Notes under the pieces: generated by a model | The model's input: only the letters and a program-made list of their open reading frames with translations | Told to the model about the DNA's origin: nothing | Databases searched by the model: none | Assembly (NCBI GenBank): GCA_025352045.1 | Contig: JANXUD010000010.1 | Location: 1-42,870, forward strand | Direction of reading: 5' to 3' | Length of the DNA stretch: 42,870 bases | DNA from: Gammaproteobacteria bacterium | GTDB taxonomy: Bacteria > Pseudomonadota > Gammaproteobacteria > Xanthomonadales > Xanthomonadaceae | Part shown: positions 7,883 through 42,870 of the stretch, in pieces | Numbering within the stretch: the first letter of the stretch is position 1 | Layout of the letters: each line of letters begins with the position of its first letter | Translations under genes and position numbers: made by a program

Positions 7883-10243
7883 TCATCCTGCGACGCCCGC
7901 CTCGGCCTGGGCTTCACCGACCAGGTCGTGCACGGCCTGCAGCAGGGTCTCGTCGTGGAAGCTACCCTTGGTCAGGTAGAAGTCGGCGCCCGCCTCCAGG
8001 CCGCGCTGGCGGTCTTCCTCGCGGTCCTTGTAGGACACGATCAGCACCGGGATCGCCCGCAGCCGCGGATCCTGCTTGATCAGGGTGACCAGGCCGATGC
8101 CGTCCATGCGCGGCATGTCCACGTCGGTCACCACTAGGTCGAAGGTGGATGCGCGCACGGCATTCCAGCCATCGGCGCCGTCCACGGCGACTTCGACCTC
8201 GAAGCCGCCGCCCTCGATCAGCTTGCGCTCGAGCTCGCGCACGGTCAGCGAATCGTCCACCACCAGCACGCGCTTGCGCCGCGTGCCGCGCGCATGCGCC
8301 GGGGCATTTCCGACGCGGCTGAGCTGGCCGCCCGCCGCCAGCTTGTCCACCGAGCGCAGCAGGTCGTCCACGTCCACGATCAGCACCGGGTCGCCATTCT
8401 CCATCAGGGCGCCGGCGCTGATGTCCTTGATCTTGCCGAGCCGTGCGTCCAGCGGCTGCACAACCAATTCGCGCACGCCGACGAAGCGGTCCACCACCAG
8501 GCCGTAGCGGTTGGCGGCGTCGCCGATCACCACCACCGGGAGGACGTCCTGCGCCAGCGCCGGCTCGCTGCCACCCAGCACCTGCAGGGCCGCGACCAGG
8601 CCGATCGCCCGACCGGCGTGCTCGACGTGCTGGCGGCCTTCGAGCATGCGGATGCGGGCGCGTTCCACCGTCAGCGTGTTGTCGATGAAGGCGAGCGGGA
8701 AGGCGTAGGCCTCGCCGCCGATGTCCGCGACCAGGGCGCGCACCACCGACACGGTCAGCGGCAGGTGCATCTGGAAGCGGGCGCCGCGGCCCGGGTCGCT
8801 GGCCACGCGCAGGCTGCCGCGCAACTGCTTGGCCATGGCCTGCACCGCGTCCAGGCCGACGCCGCGGCCGGAGATTTCCGTCACCACCTCGCGCACCGTG
8901 AACCCGGGCAGGAACAGGAACTCCAGCAGTTCCGCCTCGCTCATGCGCTCGACCGTGGCGGCGTCGCTGAGGCCGCGCTGCACCACGGTCTGGCGCACCC
9001 GCGCCAGGTCGATGCCGCGGCCATCGTCGGACACGCTCACCTGCAGCATGCCGGCCGCGTGCCGGGCGTCGAGCCGGATCAGCCCCTCGGCCGGCTTGCC
9101 CGCGGCCAGGCGCTCGGCCGGCGTTTCCATGCCGTGGTCGAGCGCGTTGCGCAGCAGGTGGCCGAGTGGCGCTTCGAGTTTTTCCAGCACGTCCCGGTCC
9201 ACCTGCGTGGTTTCCCCGACGATCTCCAGGCGGGCCTGCTTGCCCAGTTCGTGCGACAGGTCGCGGACCATGCGCGGGAAGGCGGCGATGCCGTCGGCGA
9301 AGGGCCGCATGCGGCAGGCGATCGCCTCGTCGTACATGCGCCGCGCCACGCTGGCCGAACGCTGTTCGAAGCGCTCCAGTTCGCCCAGCCGCTCGACCAA
9401 CACGGACTCGCACTCGGCCAGCTTGCGCCGCAGCTCCAGCACGCCGGTATCAACCTGCTCGCCGAGATCGTGCGCGGACAGCTGCTCCTGCAGGCTGCTG
9501 AAGCGCCGGCCCACGTCGCCCTGCAGGCGGCGCAGGCGCAGCAAGGATTCGGCGAACGGCCCCAACCAGCGCGATTCGACCAGGGATTCGCCGCTCAATC
9601 CCAGCAAGCGATTCAGGTTGGCAGCGGAGACGCGCAAACTGCGCCCGCGCTCGCGCGGATCGTGGTCGGAGTGGCGGCGGCTGCGCTGCGAGGACGGATT
9701 GGCGGGTGCTGGTTCGACGTCGGCTGACGCGGCTGGTGCGAATGCGGTTGGCGCAGATGCCTCGGCGGGGGTGCTCGCGCTTGCAGCTGGCGCGGCGGTG
9801 GCTGGCTGCGCTGGCGAGGCCGGCTGGGCGATGGTGTCGGCATCCGTAGCTACCGCGAGCGCTTGCTGGAAGGCCAGCACCTCGGCCGCGCCCGCGCCGC
9901 GCCATGGCGCCGCCTCGGCCTCGGGCGTATTGGCGATGCGCACCAGCAGGTCGACGCCGCGCAGCAGGATGTCCACGCGCTGGCGGCCAAGCCGCAACGC
10001 GCCTGACTGGGCGGCGACGAAGCAGTCCTCCATCGCATGCGCCACGGCCACGGCGGCGCCCAGGCCGACGATCCGCGCCGCGCCCTTGAGCGAATGCGCC
10101 CCGCGCATGCAGGCCTCGAGTTCGCCGGCGTCGGTGGGCGCGCGCTCCAGCGCCAGCAGGCCGCGGGTCATTGCCTCGCGCTGGCCCTCCACTTCCATGC
10201 GGAACAGGTCGAGCATCGAGAACTGGCTCAGATCCTGGCTCAT
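7883..10243 (-). CDS. wspE: WspE-like hybrid chemotaxis kinase (CheA-CheW-REC)
   Basis: The 786-residue kinase begins with an Hpt domain (H50 in GAHSLKGAARI). A variable Ala/Pro/Ser-rich linker follows (about 130-200), then the dimerisation and ATPase domain (LGHLLRNALDHGME, DDGRGID, GRGVGLDAV), a CheW-like domain and a C-terminal receiver (from about 656; phosphoacceptor D707 in VVTDVDMP). It should autophosphorylate in response to WspA and pass phosphate to WspR and WspF. The ATG overlaps the wspD stop by four bases. The fused receiver is the hallmark that separates WspE from ordinary CheA. Confidence 0.95.
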   Translation of the reverse strand: MSQDLSQFSMLDLFRMEVEGQREAMTRGLLALERAPTDAGELEACMRGAHSLKGAARIVGLGAAVAVAHAMEDCFVAAQSGALRLGRQRVDILLRGVDLLVRIANTPEAEAAPWRGAGAAEVLAFQQALAVATDADTIAQPASPAQPATAAPAASASTPAEASAPTAFAPAASADVEPAPANPSSQRSRRHSDHDPRERGRSLRVSAANLNRLLGLSGESLVESRWLGPFAESLLRLRRLQGDVGRRFSSLQEQLSAHDLGEQVDTGVLELRRKLAECESVLVERLGELERFEQRSASVARRMYDEAIACRMRPFADGIAAFPRMVRDLSHELGKQARLEIVGETTQVDRDVLEKLEAPLGHLLRNALDHGMETPAERLAAGKPAEGLIRLDARHAAGMLQVSVSDDGRGIDLARVRQTVVQRGLSDAATVERMSEAELLEFLFLPGFTVREVVTEISGRGVGLDAVQAMAKQLRGSLRVASDPGRGARFQMHLPLTVSVVRALVADIGGEAYAFPLAFIDNTLTVERARIRMLEGRQHVEHAGRAIGLVAALQVLGGSEPALAQDVLPVVVIGDAANRYGLVVDRFVGVRELVVQPLDARLGKIKDISAGALMENGDPVLIVDVDDLLRSVDKLAAGGQLSRVGNAPAHARGTRRKRVLVVDDSLTVRELERKLIEGGGFEVEVAVDGADGWNAVRASTFDLVVTDVDMPRMDGIGLVTLIKQDPRLRAIPVLIVSYKDREEDRQRGLEAGADFYLTKGSFHDETLLQAVHDLVGEAQAEAGVAG

Positions 10244-37358: not shown

Positions 37359-40300
37359 TCAGCGTTTTGGCGAGAGGATGGCCGTGGCTTGCCCCACGTC
37401 CAATGGCCGCCCAAGCAAGTACCCCTGCAGGAGGTCGCAACCGATCGAACTCAGGAAGTCCGCTTGCTCCTTGGTCTCGACGCCCTCGGCAGCGACGCTC
37501 AGCCCGAACTCGTGGGCAATCGAAACGATGGTCCTGGCCATGGCCTGGTCTTTCTCGCCTCCTGGCAGGCCGTCCACGAAACTCTTGTCGATCTTCAGTT
37601 TGCTGAGCTGCAGATGCTTCAAGTAGGAAAGGCTCGAATACCCGGTTCCGAAGTCATCGAGTGCCACGCTTACCCCCATCTCCGCAAAGCGTTTGAGCTT
37701 GTCCCGAACCCGAGCCATGTTTTCGATCAACGCGCTTTCGGTGATCTCCAGCTCAAGGTATTGGGCAGGAACTGCGCAAGTCTTCAGCGCGTCCTGAACG
37801 ATCGCCACCAAGCCGGGCCGCTGCAGTTGGAGGGAGGACACGTTTACCGCCACCTTAAACCCGGAAAAGCCAGCGTCCAGCCACTCGCGGATCTGGGAGC
37901 AAGCTTGCCGGACCACCCAAGCGCCAATGTCGGTCATCAGACCCAACTTTTCTGCGACCGGTACGAACCGTCCGGTCGGAATCGCCCCCAAGACTGGATG
38001 GCTCCACCTCAGAAGCGCCTCGAATCCAACGAGGTCCGAGTCCATTCCCCTGAAGAGTGGTTGGTAGACAAGATGTAGTTCGCTGCGGTCAATGGCGCTT
38101 CGAAGGTGGCCGCCAAGAACGATCCGATCCTCCAGCGCCTGCATGTCTTGGGCGGAGAACCAATGGACGCAGTCCCGCCCGGCGGCCTTTCCACCCTCGG
38201 TGGCAGCCTCTGCGCGACGAAGGAGCTCGTTCGCCGTCTGGCCATGGTGGGGCGAAACGGAAATGCCAACCGTTGCCGTCAGGTTGACCAGGAACCCACC
38301 CGCCTGAATCGGCTCGGCGACTCGTGCCCGCAGGCGATCGGCCAACCCGGAGATGGCGTGATGATCACCGCTCGACAATAGCGCCAGGAACTCGTCGCCC
38401 GATAGGTGACATAACCGGACTCGTTCCGATTCCTCCCCGGCTAGCCTGGTGCCGACGAGGGCGAGAACCTCGTCAGCAACCTCGTGGGACATCGTTTGGT
38501 TGATCGCAGAGAAGCGGTCCAATTCCACCAGCACGAATGCCATGGTGCGCCCGGCCGCCAGCTCGCTGTCCACCCACCCTTGAAGACTCTGGAATCGCGC
38601 CAGGCCCGTCAGGCTGTCGTGACTGGCGGCAAATTCGAGCGCGTCCAAGACGCGGTTTCGTTCGGCCTGCGCCATCGTACGCTCGTGCTCGGCGGCCGCC
38701 TTCTCTCGCTCAACTCGCCTGCGCGCCGTAACGTCATGGGCCAGCACCAGCCTGGACCGCCGGCCCTCGTTGATCAGGTCATCCGCCGACACCTCAACTT
38801 CAATAAGCGATCCATCCTTGCGTCGGTGCCGGGCGGAGTAGTTCGAAGTCGCGCCCGAGATCGTCTCCAGCCTCTCAAGGAATGACTTTAGGTCCCCGGC
38901 ATCTTCCTTTGGCCGCAAGTCAAGGATCGACATCCCCAGGAACTCGTCCCTCGAATAGCCGTAGAGCGCAATCGCGGCGTCGTTGACATCCTGGATGCGC
39001 AGAGAACCGAACTCGAAAACCCACATCGGATGCGGGTTCTGGGCGAACAGCATGCGGTATCGGCGTTCCGACACGGCGATCTTCTCGGCAGCATTTCGTC
39101 GCTCGATCAGGACGCCCATGCTCTGGACGATGGACGTCAGGACATCGGCATCTGCCGGTGTAAACATTTCGGGACGCGAGCCGACGACCTTCAGCACTCC
39201 GACGATCGCATCTTCGCCGATCAGGGGCGCGACGAGGATGGAGGCAACGTTCAACCGCCGACACGCTTCCGAATCGACTCGGGGATCGGCCGAGGTGTCG
39301 TCGGAATGCAGCAGCACGCCTTCCGCCGCGCACAGCCCGGACAAGCTACCTTCCCGGGCAAGGCGCAAACCTTCCTGGCCCTTGAGCTGGCCGCAACATG
39401 CGGCGTAGACCATCTCGGGGCCATCCAGCATCTCGACCACGGCGCCATCAGCGCCCGTGAGCTCAAGGGCGTGTGCGCTCAGCGCGTCCATGATGCCTTG
39501 CACCGGCTCGTCGGAAGCCGCCAGTTGCCGCTGAAGCTCGAAAATGCGCGCCTTGATGTATGCGCTTGAGTCGAGTGCGGCCTGCCGCTCGATGCGCTCG
39601 AGTGTGGCCGACAAGCTACTGACGAGCACATCCATGGCGGGGATGTCATCAACTGTAAAGCGATGCGCCGTCCTGGCCATCACTTTGATGACGCCGACGG
39701 AGGTTGACCCCTGCTTCAAGACACCAACGGCCATCGAACCGATCCCTACCGCCTTGCACGCCGCCAGATCGACGCGGCGGTCGGACAACGCGTCGACCGC
39801 TACCAACGTCTGCCCGGTATCCAGCGCCTCGCCTGAAAGGCTGCCTTGTCTGGGCACGCGCAGGCCCGGGGAAGCCTCAGCCATGCCGCGCATTGCCCGA
39901 TACACGAGGAATTCGCCGTCGGGAATCTCCACCGCCGCACCGTCGGCACCCATCGCCTGCTGGGCAATCCTTGCCATGTCGTCGTACAGCGCCGAAGTCG
40001 TCGTCGTTAACCCGGCAAGCTCCCGCTGGCAGTTAGCCAGCACGCGCAGGCGCCTGCTTTGTTCCAGGAGGAGCGACGCTTGGTGTCGGCGCGTCGTGAT
40101 GTCGCGAATGAAGGCTGTGAACAAGGGCGCGTCCTTGGACCCAGATCGAGACACGCTGAGTTCGATGGGAAACCGGGTGCCATCCGCGCGCAACGCTTCA
40201 AGCTCCAACCGCCGGTCAAGCAAGGTCGCCTGGCCTGTGCGCACGTTCTCATCCAGGCCGAGTCGATGACGCCCACGCATCTCGGGTGGAATCACCAAGC

Positions 40301-40484
40301 CGAGGTCGCGGCCGACAACCTGCTCACGACGCCAACCAAAGATGGCCTCGGCTGACGGATTGAATTCCCTGATGACATTTTGAGCGTCAGCCACGATGAT
40401 GCCGTCCAGGGCAGACTCCAGGATCGCCCTGGCGTGGGGGTCCCCTTGTTGGCCTTGGGCCGGAAGGCGCACCGCGTCGTCCAC
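37359..40484 (-). CDS. PAS-GAF-GAF-PAS-GGDEF-EAL signalling protein
   Basis: The 1041-residue protein has PAS (about 18-130), two tandem GAF domains (about 145-300 and 315-460, sharing a GSLSG motif), a second PAS (about 470-590), GGDEF (about 620-775) and EAL (about 785-1035). The cyclase site reads SGDEF at about 695-699 and may still work. The EAL landmarks EALLRW, NVSS, LEITES, DDFGTGYSSL, LKIDKSF, AEGVE and LLQGYLLG are complete, so phosphodiesterase activity is expected. No membrane helix is seen. I chose GTG 40484 because GGAGGT lies five bases before it; a GTG at 40541 lacks one. The gene is less GC-rich than the left half of the window. Confidence 0.92.
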   Translation of the reverse strand: MDDAVRLPAQGQQGDPHARAILESALDGIIVADAQNVIREFNPSAEAIFGWRREQVVGRDLGLVIPPEMRGRHRLGLDENVRTGQATLLDRRLELEALRADGTRFPIELSVSRSGSKDAPLFTAFIRDITTRRHQASLLLEQSRRLRVLANCQRELAGLTTTTSALYDDMARIAQQAMGADGAAVEIPDGEFLVYRAMRGMAEASPGLRVPRQGSLSGEALDTGQTLVAVDALSDRRVDLAACKAVGIGSMAVGVLKQGSTSVGVIKVMARTAHRFTVDDIPAMDVLVSSLSATLERIERQAALDSSAYIKARIFELQRQLAASDEPVQGIMDALSAHALELTGADGAVVEMLDGPEMVYAACCGQLKGQEGLRLAREGSLSGLCAAEGVLLHSDDTSADPRVDSEACRRLNVASILVAPLIGEDAIVGVLKVVGSRPEMFTPADADVLTSIVQSMGVLIERRNAAEKIAVSERRYRMLFAQNPHPMWVFEFGSLRIQDVNDAAIALYGYSRDEFLGMSILDLRPKEDAGDLKSFLERLETISGATSNYSARHRRKDGSLIEVEVSADDLINEGRRSRLVLAHDVTARRRVEREKAAAEHERTMAQAERNRVLDALEFAASHDSLTGLARFQSLQGWVDSELAAGRTMAFVLVELDRFSAINQTMSHEVADEVLALVGTRLAGEESERVRLCHLSGDEFLALLSSGDHHAISGLADRLRARVAEPIQAGGFLVNLTATVGISVSPHHGQTANELLRRAEAATEGGKAAGRDCVHWFSAQDMQALEDRIVLGGHLRSAIDRSELHLVYQPLFRGMDSDLVGFEALLRWSHPVLGAIPTGRFVPVAEKLGLMTDIGAWVVRQACSQIREWLDAGFSGFKVAVNVSSLQLQRPGLVAIVQDALKTCAVPAQYLELEITESALIENMARVRDKLKRFAEMGVSVALDDFGTGYSSLSYLKHLQLSKLKIDKSFVDGLPGGEKDQAMARTIVSIAHEFGLSVAAEGVETKEQADFLSSIGCDLLQGYLLGRPLDVGQATAILSPKR

Positions 40485-40698
40485 ACACCACCTCCGATAG
40501 CGTTCGCATACGTCCGGGCGGACGGTTCCGCCGCGTTGCACCTGACTTCACCATCAGAGGACCAAGAATAAGCCCAAGAATGTGTGACCCAATTCAAGGA
40601 TTTGGACTGACAACGGGCATTCGTTAGTCAGCGGCGGTTACCGCCCCAGCAGAGCGTAGGCCTCCGCCCCATGCACGGTGCCGTCTCAGGACGCCCGT

Positions 40699-42728
40699 CT
40701 AGCGTCCAACGGTGCAGGCTTCCTCGGCGGCTTGGACAGCCTCCTCTGCATCGCTGATCCAAAGCGATCCGTCCAGCAACGTCTGAGGCGGTGGCCGCAA
40801 TGCACTGAAGGCTTGCCCACCGATCAGTACCACCGGCCGCACGTGCCCCGAGGCAAGCTCGAGTCTCTCGACGGCGAGTTGGACCTCGCGCACGTGCTGC
40901 GGCAAGGCTGCCGAGAGTGCAACTACGTCGGGCTGCCATTGCTCGACGTGCTGCAGCAGCACGTCGAGCGGCACATCCTGCCCGAGCACATTCACCTGCC
41001 AACCGACGGCACTGAATGCGTCCGCAATCAACTGCAGGCCGACCATGTGCTCGTTCCCCTTGACGCAGGCAAGCAAGGCTTTCCGGCCCGTCGGTTCGGA
41101 AGCGGGAGCGCGCGACCGCATGTAGGACAGGACCTCCAGCGCCAGTCCCGTCGCGATGTGCTCCTGACCCACGCTGACTGCGTTGCTCCCCCACAGCTCG
41201 CCAATCGAGACAAGCGCAGGATGGATCAGGGAGCGCGAAATTTGCCCTGGACCGTGACCGGCGGCAATCCGGCGTTCCACGATCTCGAGGCACGCGCGGC
41301 GCGAGCCTGCGAGAAGGGCGGTCTCGAAGGCCGCACGCTCGGGCCATGCCGAAGCGATGACGCGGTCCCTCTCGGGATCCACCGGAGGAGCGACAAGTGC
41401 GCCGAAGCTTCCCCCGAGCCGATTCCAGAGCGCCGTCAAATCACCGGCTTCCATCGGTTTGGCGAAGTAATATCCCTGCGCCTGCTCGCAGCCATGCGCC
41501 TGGAGAAACTGCACCTGCTCCGCGGTTTCGACGCACTCCGCGATGACCTCCAAGTTCAGCCCATGCGCCATCTCGATGATGGCGACAGCGATGGACGCGT
41601 CCGCGGGGTTGCTCGTCAGGTCCCGGATGAAGCTGCCATCGATCTTCACGGCGTTCAGGGGGAACCTGCGCAGGTAGGAGAGGCTGGAGTATCCAGTCCC
41701 GAAGTCGTCGACGGACACGGAGACGCCCATGTCCCCCAGCGCGCGCAGGACGGTGATGCTGTGCTCCGCATCGGCCATGATCACGCTCTCTGTCAACTCG
41801 ACTTCAAGCGAGCCCTGGCCAACGCCGTGTGCTTGGAGGCAACCGGAGACAACCGACAGGATGTTAAGGTTCTTCGTCTGGCAACCATCGAGCGTATCCG
41901 CGTCTGGCGCGGGCGAAGACTGCTTGTCGACCATCTGCGTTGCGGACACGTTCACTGCAATTGCGAGCGAACCCATTCCCATGCACTTCCATTCGGCGAG
42001 TTGCCGGCAAGCGGCCTCGATGACCCACGCGCCGACAGGGACGATCAGGCCGGATTCTTCAAGCGCCGGAATGAATTTGTCGGGAGGGACCAATCCAACG
42101 CCGGGGCGTCGCCAGCGCAGCAGGGCCTCGACGCCCGTCCATTGGCCGGTGCGTAGCGACACCTTTGGCTGGTAGTACAGAACGAACTCGTCGCGCGCGA
42201 CGGCGTCCCGCAAAGCCGCGATGAGGTCCATCTTTTCGACGACGCGGCGGTTCATGGCCTCGGTGTAAAAGCGGGACGTGTTTCGACCTGAACGCTTGGC
42301 CTCATACATGGCCATGTCGGCATAGCGGGCCAGCTCGTCGGCATCCTGCGTATCGGCGCGATAGATCGCCATGCCGATACTGGCTGAGGTACGGACCGAA
42401 TGCGCGCCCAGCTGGAACGGCGCTTCGAGCACGCGATGGATCTTCTCCGCCACTTTCATCGCAAGGTCCGGCTCGCGCGGAACCAGGAGGATGACGCCGA
42501 ACTCGTCTCCGCCGAGGCGACCGACGCTGTCGCGCACGTACAGGGACGCCAGGAGCCGCTCGCCGATTGCGCGCAGCAACTCGTCGCCGACGGCATGCCC
42601 CAGGCTGTCGTTGATGTCCTTGAAGTTGTCGAGGTCCAGGTAGACGAGGACCACCTGCAAGTCGAGCGCATCGGCCTGGGCCATCGACTTGGACAGCGAT
42701 TCCTGGAACTGAACCGCCCCGGGATTCG
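40699..42728 (-). CDS. GGDEF-EAL protein with C-terminal CarH-like cobalamin-binding domain, 5' end lost to an IS element
   Basis: Reading from the truncated end, GGDEF comes first (LDLDNFKDIND, LGGDEFG; no RxxD inhibitory site). EAL follows (VEALLRW, NVSA, VELTES, DDFGTGYSSL, VKIDGSF, AECVE, AQGYYF), with about 15 extra residues between NVSATQM and VELTES. The last 200 residues form a helical cap bearing W-x9-E-H (W codon 41191-41193, E 41161-41163, H 41158-41160) and a Rossmann part with NEHMVG (candidate axial His at 41047-41049) and VLIGGQAF. The W-x9-EH signature is that of B12-dependent photoreceptors of the CarH group. The frame runs on into an IS3-family element, so the natural start and any N-terminal sensor are missing. 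Confidence 0.88.
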
Positions 42729-42870
42729 TGGAGGCTCCAACTCTTGAGAGAATGGAGCCATGAACAAGACGAACAAGTTTTCTCCCGAAGTCCGCGATCG
42801 CGCGGTTCGGATGGTGCAGGAGCATCGGGGCGAGTATCCGTCGCTGTGGGCGGCGGTGGAATCGATAGCA
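42729..42870 (+). mobile_element. Left end of an IS3-family insertion sequence (cut by window end)
   Basis: The element begins near the TG at 42729, where the GGDEF coding sequence stops matching its family. The transposase OrfA starts 31 bases further in. The terminal repeat cannot be confirmed because the right end lies outside the window. The insertion has separated the GGDEF gene from its start. Confidence 0.7.
42760..42870 (+). CDS. IS3-family transposase OrfA (partial)
   Basis: The first 37 codons read [19 protein letters not shown], then [18 protein letters not shown], a typical start of IS3-family OrfA, a helix-turn-helix DNA-binding protein normally of about 90-100 residues that is fused to OrfB by frameshifting. 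The window ends inside it. ATG 42760 follows GGAG at two bases. Confidence 0.9.

Follow-up and report, generated by a model that had tools for sequence, protein, structure and literature searches.

A predicted GGDEF-EAL protein with a C-terminal photocobilin-clade cobalamin-binding domain, apparently truncated by an IS3-family element

The photoreceptors CarH, LitR, and CtMerR carry a DNA-binding head. A light signature of cobalamin domains, composed of the elements GxxW, EH, GxxH, and GxxxP, has been published (PMC11796333, accessible sections), and E/DxH was named as a photocobilin motif in the accessible part of another report (PMC10979010). The same part describes AbDPcob, in which the binding of AdoCbl lowers the turnover of the cyclase and light raises it more than 10-fold, so the control of a fused cyclase by B12 and light is already published (PMC10979010).

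No paper on a B12-EAL fusion was found in the literature searched, as far as its text was accessible. The available text of PMC11796333 names diguanylate cyclase fusions, PDE is listed among the network domains in the legend of its Fig. 9, and a B12-phosphodiesterase fusion may already appear in that figure. The words cobalamin, B12, and CarH were absent, by word search, from the available text of a 2022 census of c-di-GMP sensing (PMC8846402).

Domain Architecture of the Fused Gene and Its Surroundings

An ORF of 708 aa was listed at positions 40699–42825 of the minus strand, at the right end of the window (the whole stretch of DNA analyzed, a contig of 42,870 bases that ends inside an IS3-family element), and its frame is open up to the contig edge. 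The remnant of the gene, defined from the ORF listing and the coordinates, spans 40699–42709 on the minus strand and is open to the stop codon. Beyond 42709, the frame runs antisense through the end of the element to 42825 and the contig edge, and the first ~39 codons of the ORF are an antisense reading of this element. An initial annotation of this DNA had extended the gene to 42728, a coordinate that falls inside the element, and had missed the break.

The encoded domains are, in order, GGDEF, EAL, B12-binding_2, and B12-binding, all exceeding the curated Pfam cut-offs. The GGDEF domain (42280–42711, minus strand; residues 39–182, E = 2.4e-37) matches positions 14–160 of the 161 in the profile; its first matched residue straddles the edge of the element and the first ~13 profile positions are absent, so that it falls short of the complete domain needed for a diguanylate cyclase. 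The missing start would presumably hold the DxLTGLxNR segment, with the GTP-contacting Asn. The GGDEF motif itself is intact at residues 105–109, and the RxxD position, which we take to be the inhibitory site according to the I-site rule, reads YVRD. Pfam thus bore out the earlier proposal of c-di-GMP synthesis and hydrolysis domains as far as their identity is concerned, but a working cyclase half is doubtful because the element cuts the present copy inside GGDEF.

The EAL domain (41455–42219, minus strand; residues 203–457, E = 8.2e-69) contains all the motifs of the catalytic list that we assumed to apply to it (EALLR, NVS, ELTES, DDFGTGYSSL, KIDGSF, AECVET, and AQGY), and the protein would therefore qualify as an EAL phosphodiesterase. 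In NCBIfam, the GGDEF-EAL part was matched best by phosphodiesterases, including DibA and PRK10060, with scores far below the family cut-offs (400.5, 382.6, and 311.5 bits for the DibA, PRK10060, and DosP types vs. 980, 782, and 857). Since the EAL motifs are complete, the nearest named GGDEF-EAL proteins are phosphodiesterases, and GGDEF is truncated, our best guess is that c-di-GMP hydrolysis by EAL would be the likeliest surviving output.

The next gene downstream (37359–40541, minus strand), whose listed ORF is separated from that of the fused gene by 157 bases, encodes up to 1060 aa with a PAS-GAF-GAF-PAS-GGDEF-EAL arrangement according to Pfam. The GC3 of the remnant was 0.78, against a GC2 of 0.45, which is a coding-type profile. 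The GC3 values of these two contig-end genes (0.78 and 0.75) are lower than those of three Pfam-supported genes elsewhere on the contig (0.90, 0.86, and 0.85), and their acquisition by transfer is likely. In all, three further GGDEF or GGDEF-EAL matches were found on the contig (5695–7917, 19397–21484, and 37359–40541), and a CheA-like protein with Hpt, HATPase, CheW, and receiver domains is encoded at 7886–10243.

The Cobalamin Domain and Its Clade

The C-terminal region comprises a helical cap (B12-binding_2, PF02607; 41122–41331, minus strand; residues 499–568, E = 1.3e-8), predicted as helices by AlphaFold2 and containing GELW (W545) and E555-H556, followed by a Rossmann part (B12-binding, PF02310; 40801–41082, minus strand; residues 582–675, E = 6.6e-15), which contains G590-N591-E592-H593, with H593 as the candidate axial ligand, and GQDVP at residues 615–619. 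All four elements of the published light signature (PMC11796333, accessible sections) are present, in order, at residues 542–619. Searched with set gap ranges, the GxxW-EH-GxxH-GxxxP pattern was matched by 3 of 200,000 shuffled versions of the domain and by 8 of the 18 related ORFs to which it was applied. The residue after the signature Trp is Gly.

The AlphaFold2 model of the domain, obtained from a 49-row alignment (pLDDT 91.5, pTM 0.86), begins with five helices, after which strands and helices alternate. The best solved structures retrieved by Foldseek were SasPcob (8J2W/8J2X), CtMerR (8JBS/8JBT), T. thermophilus MetH, AbPcob (8J2Y), and CarH, with E = 2.6e-16 and a TM score of 0.80 for the whole domain against 8J2W and E = 4.3e-12 against CarH 5C8F. 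The predicted fold fits the CarH-like definition given in the available text of PMC11796333 by Foldseek, the 2 Å rmsd rule of that paper being left aside, and the putative assignment of W, E, and His to the cofactor pocket is based on alignment to SasPcob. At the sequence level, the domain alone matched 8J2W (E = 2.2e-19), and a profile of 49 relatives searched against the PDB returned SasPcob 8J2X/8J2W (1.7e-61), AbPcob 8J2Y (2.1e-46), and CtMerR (4.7e-43).

A pattern scan of genome contigs yielded 77 relatives from 123 pattern matches. In a tree of 91 rows, the window domain fell inside a group of 37 rows, mostly globin+B12 proteins, with support of 100/99. Its own branch is long (1.75 vs. 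a median of 0.39), which leaves its exact place inside the clade unsure, and the function of the domain may have shifted. Over the best segment, identity was 27–45% for the clade loci from the scan, and the closest relatives retrieved were globin+B12 proteins of the photocobilin type rather than CarH.

In the form worded in the accessible part of PMC10979010, the axial motif is E/DxH, and the window domain has N591-E592-H593 instead. Of the 36 clade loci, 34 have Asn two positions ahead of the axial His and the other two have Ala, and the full G-N-x-H is kept in 32; where 37 clade rows are counted for this position, a separate corrinoid domain on L084, with Asp there, is included. In 80 rows outside the clade, the same position is occupied by E (53), D (13), Q (5), S (4), N (3), A (1), or H (1). 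One of the two scan patterns contained GN[EH]H, so some of the Asn enrichment was built in, but this pattern could not have matched 18 of the 34 Asn members, in which x is neither E nor H. As judged by these alignments, Asn at this position is a feature of the clade and not a defect of the window protein. The residue after the Trp is Gln in 33 of the 37 clade rows.

The Pfam matches, the published signature, the predicted structure, and the tree support the presence of a B12-binding domain of the photosensor type on a c-di-GMP enzyme. The W-x9-E-H signature of the initial annotation was found as described (W545-x9-E555-H556), both B12 profiles matched above their cut-offs, and a helical cap over a Rossmann-type fold was predicted, as it had anticipated. 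Its candidate axial His, with Asn two residues before it, was also correctly read, but the deviation is the usual state in the clade, and its term "CarH-like" suits the domain less well than "photocobilin-clade B12 domain", given the photocobilin-type kin and the Gly after Trp.

Gene Sets of the Clade and Searches for Similar Fusions

The 36 clade loci (L063 and L112 are identical and were counted once) share a conserved gene set. In all 36, the B12 gene is followed by one whose product starts with a PAS-like segment; the output of this product is GGDEF in 18, a histidine kinase in 15, and not assigned in 3. In 34 loci, the B12 domain comes right after a phycobilisome-like globin domain, and an ABM-family gene lies directly upstream in 25; two of the 11 loci without it had <300 bases of upstream sequence. 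Examples of the set of ABM-family, globin+B12, and PAS-like plus GGDEF/kinase genes are found at L085:4282–6598, L099:4224–6652, and L101:3357–5844, and no paper describing it was found by titles and abstracts.

The best PDB matches of the globin profile were AbPcob (4.2e-7) and SasPcob (1.6e-4 and 1.7e-4), in the bilin-domain region, and then phycobiliproteins, and Pfam Phycobilisome matched 4 of 20 globin members. The AlphaFold2 model of the L085 globin+B12 protein (pLDDT 90.9) shows the B12 fold preceded by an N-terminal domain made up of helices only; its Foldseek match to photocobilins covered 203–215 columns, the length of the B12 part, and the globin identity is therefore based on the sequence profile. 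The ABM protein of L085, the sole one scanned, had its best matches, below cut-off, with the heme-degrading HmuQ (1.1e-9) and with IsdI-type heme oxygenases. The ABM-family gene product may make a bilin for the globin+B12 protein. All 20 aligned globin domains have the Cys of a C-x-x-D motif, and 19 have its D. SasPcob and AbPcob have no bilin-linking Cys according to the available text of PMC10979010, and the alignment suggests that the clade globins with this Cys may bind bilin covalently.

Several loci differ in their arrangement. At L112:4549–5594 (identical to L063), on a contig with the title Mariprofundus sp., two adjacent ORFs encode the globin and the B12 domain separately. At L098:6869–9829 and L109:6612–8753, a PAS-GGDEF-EAL gene directly follows the photosensor operon, as the gene at 37359–40541 follows the fused gene of the window. 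L118, on a contig titled Thermoplasmata archaeon, has a GNHH B12 domain beside a PAS-like histidine kinase, with neither a globin nor an ABM gene found at the locus. The B12 domains of L107 and L101, on contigs of MAGs titled Klebsiella pneumoniae and Bordetella parapertussis, are nearly the same as that of a betaproteobacterial MAG (L100), and these two species labels look doubtful.

The window protein stands apart from these relatives. Among 146 B12-domain ORFs of the fetched loci, three carried EAL, all of them overlapping versions of the window's own gene, and none was found in the 143 others. With the B12 domain as a query, no second EAL-B12 protein was seen in 100 genomes (99 relatives and its own), nor in 369 genomes of the class, 398 of the phylum, and 399 of the family to which G843 belongs; these sets share members, and its own genome or G843 is among them. 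When the whole protein was searched against 13 genomes of clade members, no match among those listed passed query residue 504. No second EAL-B12 protein was seen in plasmids (20 records matched, of which two were opened), and a scan of viral contigs gave no relative. No close relative was present in 26 other genomes of the same genus (best match 9.2e-9), most matches lying in frames of at least 1000 aa, the size of methionine synthase. In its own genome, the query gave a total of 39 matches, one of which lies in a frame of MetH size.

The clade globin profile found 35 of the 37 clade locus records, including 14 unused in building it, and detected no globin in window ORFs of at least 50 aa, where the N-terminus of the gene is missing. 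Neither this profile nor a search for an ABM relative gave a match in the window's own genome, both searches being run without a positive-control genome. Homology to the clade begins near 'ASAWPERAAFETALL', shortly past the end of EAL, and we read the fusion as a probable joining of the B12 domain to GGDEF-EAL by module transfer.

Truncation of the Gene and Competing Explanations

The end of the IS3-family element, at 42710–42870 of the plus strand, was delimited by blastn of 42690–42870; it reaches the contig end and interrupts the gene. This segment matched 1502 plasmid records, 1413 of them at 60–80% identity. Among the 15 listed of these matches, eight were annotated as IS3 family transposase, one as transposase, and six carried no annotation, and the match started at 42709 or 42710 in eight and at 42700–42707 in seven. 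Within the element, a segment of 34 aa from the first reading frame had no Pfam match, so the family name is based on the DNA matches. The terminal sequence occurs once in the window, no second copy was seen in the assembly, and a search of the whole genome for the lost front of the gene via the other IS end returned one further near-match, which was not IS-end-like on reading. As read from the sequence, the gene is 5'-truncated inside GGDEF by this element, and its true N-terminus and any N-terminal sensor are absent. The present copy is probably damaged, and its product, if any, is best explained as a GGDEF-impaired EAL-B12 protein.

On balance, we lean towards the view that the gene encoded a light-controlled c-di-GMP enzyme with a C-terminal photocobilin-clade AdoCbl domain, of which the present copy was 5'-truncated by the element. 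In the dark, the helical cap and the Rossmann part would hold AdoCbl between them, H593 being its lower ligand, and W545 and E555/H556 would hold the adenosyl group, favoring a head-to-tail dimer of B12 domains; green light would break the Co-C bond, the dimer would rearrange, and the neighboring EAL domain would then change its activity in c-di-GMP hydrolysis. By analogy with AbDPcob, photolysis of AdoCbl in the C-terminal domain would thus alter the dimer and hence EAL activity. The direct results are the domains, the signature residues, the predicted fold, the clade, and the linkage of clade genes to diguanylate cyclases or kinases, from which we infer AdoCbl binding and a light response of the window protein; any direction of activity change is not predictable, because the effect on the cyclase was the opposite with biliverdin-free SasPcob (PMC10979010, accessible part). 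AdoCbl could be available, since the genome encodes a PduO-type adenosyltransferase (PF01923, E = 1.8e-62) and a MetH-size relative; no adenosyltransferase of the CobA/BtuR type was found in it. Several observations count against this preferred reading: Gly replaces the Gln that follows the Trp in most clade rows, the globin of 34 of 36 relatives is absent from the window, though the N-terminus of the gene is missing, the branch of the domain is long, MetH, which is no light sensor, is also among the best fold matches, and NxH stands in place of E/DxH in a domain with no close relative in the 26 other genomes of the genus.

A more specific proposal, speculative and in our opinion rather unlikely, is that the light-sensor domain moved from the bilin/B12 operon clade onto GGDEF-EAL and dropped the globin, giving a green-light-controlled phosphodiesterase, and that EAL-B12 is still expressed after the insertion as a light-gated hydrolase. 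If true, B12 photochemistry would control the breakdown of c-di-GMP and not its synthesis alone, and a single-chromophore green-light tool to lower c-di-GMP would be at hand. It would also tie a group of B12 domains that have Asn close to the cobalt ligand to c-di-GMP and kinase signaling, which makes the role of this residue directly testable.

It is quite possible, if short of probable, that the insertion removed the promoter, the start, and the sensor/GGDEF front and left a decaying remnant without current function. This explanation concerns the present copy and is compatible with the preferred reading of the ancestral protein. It is consistent with the position of the IS end at 42710, inside GGDEF, with the long branch of the B12 domain, and with the missing counterparts in the 26 same-genus genomes, where the gene would be dispensable. 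However, ~670 codons past the edge of the element are still open with a coding-type GC3, and neither the residues of the cobalamin site nor the EAL motifs searched for have been lost. The ends of IS3-type elements are able to drive outward transcription, which also counts against a dead gene.

The domain could instead report AdoCbl availability or redox state to the enzyme, its light response having been lost. The absence of the globin from the window, the Gly after Trp, and the long branch would fit such a sensor of cobalamin levels, and AdoCbl binding by itself lowers the cyclase activity of AbDPcob (PMC10979010, accessible part), but we hold it to be unlikely in view of the complete light signature and the photocobilin-type closest kin.

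An assembly artefact, in which the assembler joined the IS end to a gene that is in reality intact, appears improbable. The contig ends inside the element, a typical assembly break, the genome is in 141 contigs, and the search of the assembly for the other IS end was negative; yet the join lies at the IS terminus, as a real insertion would give, and no second version of the junction was seen.

Finally, an ordinary methyltransferase-type corrinoid domain with no sensory role was rejected as very improbable on signature and tree: it would share the fold of the MetH and MttC corrinoid domains, which were among the sequence and fold matches, but the full light signature present here is absent from the one MetH-sized ORF tested (L056), the MetH-sized rows L020 and L025 fall outside the clade, and the fusion partner is EAL and not a methyltransferase.

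Comparison with Known Systems

Phosphodiesterases of the DibA, PRK10060, and DosP types are not known to carry a B12 domain, and their likeness to the window protein ends where EAL ends. A Thermus protein of our set (L172) has a His after the Trp, which we take to be His132 of CarH, whereas the window domain has Gly, so a bis-His light state cannot form as in CarH. CtMerR, SasPcob, and AbDPcob also have no His at this position (PMC11796333, available sections). The window domain has the light signature (as given in the same sections) and the fold in common with CarH, LitR, and CtMerR, but it differs from them by NxH in place of E/DxH. No HTH family was detected by the Pfam scan of the 708 aa, in which GGDEF-EAL precedes the B12 domain and the N-terminus is lost, and membership in the CarH/LitR group was rejected, as no DNA-binding head was seen and there is no His after Trp.

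SasPcob (8J2W/8J2X) is the best match of the window domain in both sequence and structure, but it is a standalone protein in which B12 is followed by globin, and it has E-W-H where the window domain has N-E-H. Another close system is AbDPcob of an Acidimicrobiaceae bacterium (PDB 8J2Y; accessible part of PMC10979010), which likewise has a light-type cobalamin domain fused to a c-di-GMP enzyme and whose structure gave Foldseek TM scores of 0.77–0.78 with the window domain. AbDPcob combines a bilin-type globin with a cyclase, whereas the window protein has EAL too, carries its B12 domain at the extreme C-terminus, and has no globin in its visible part.
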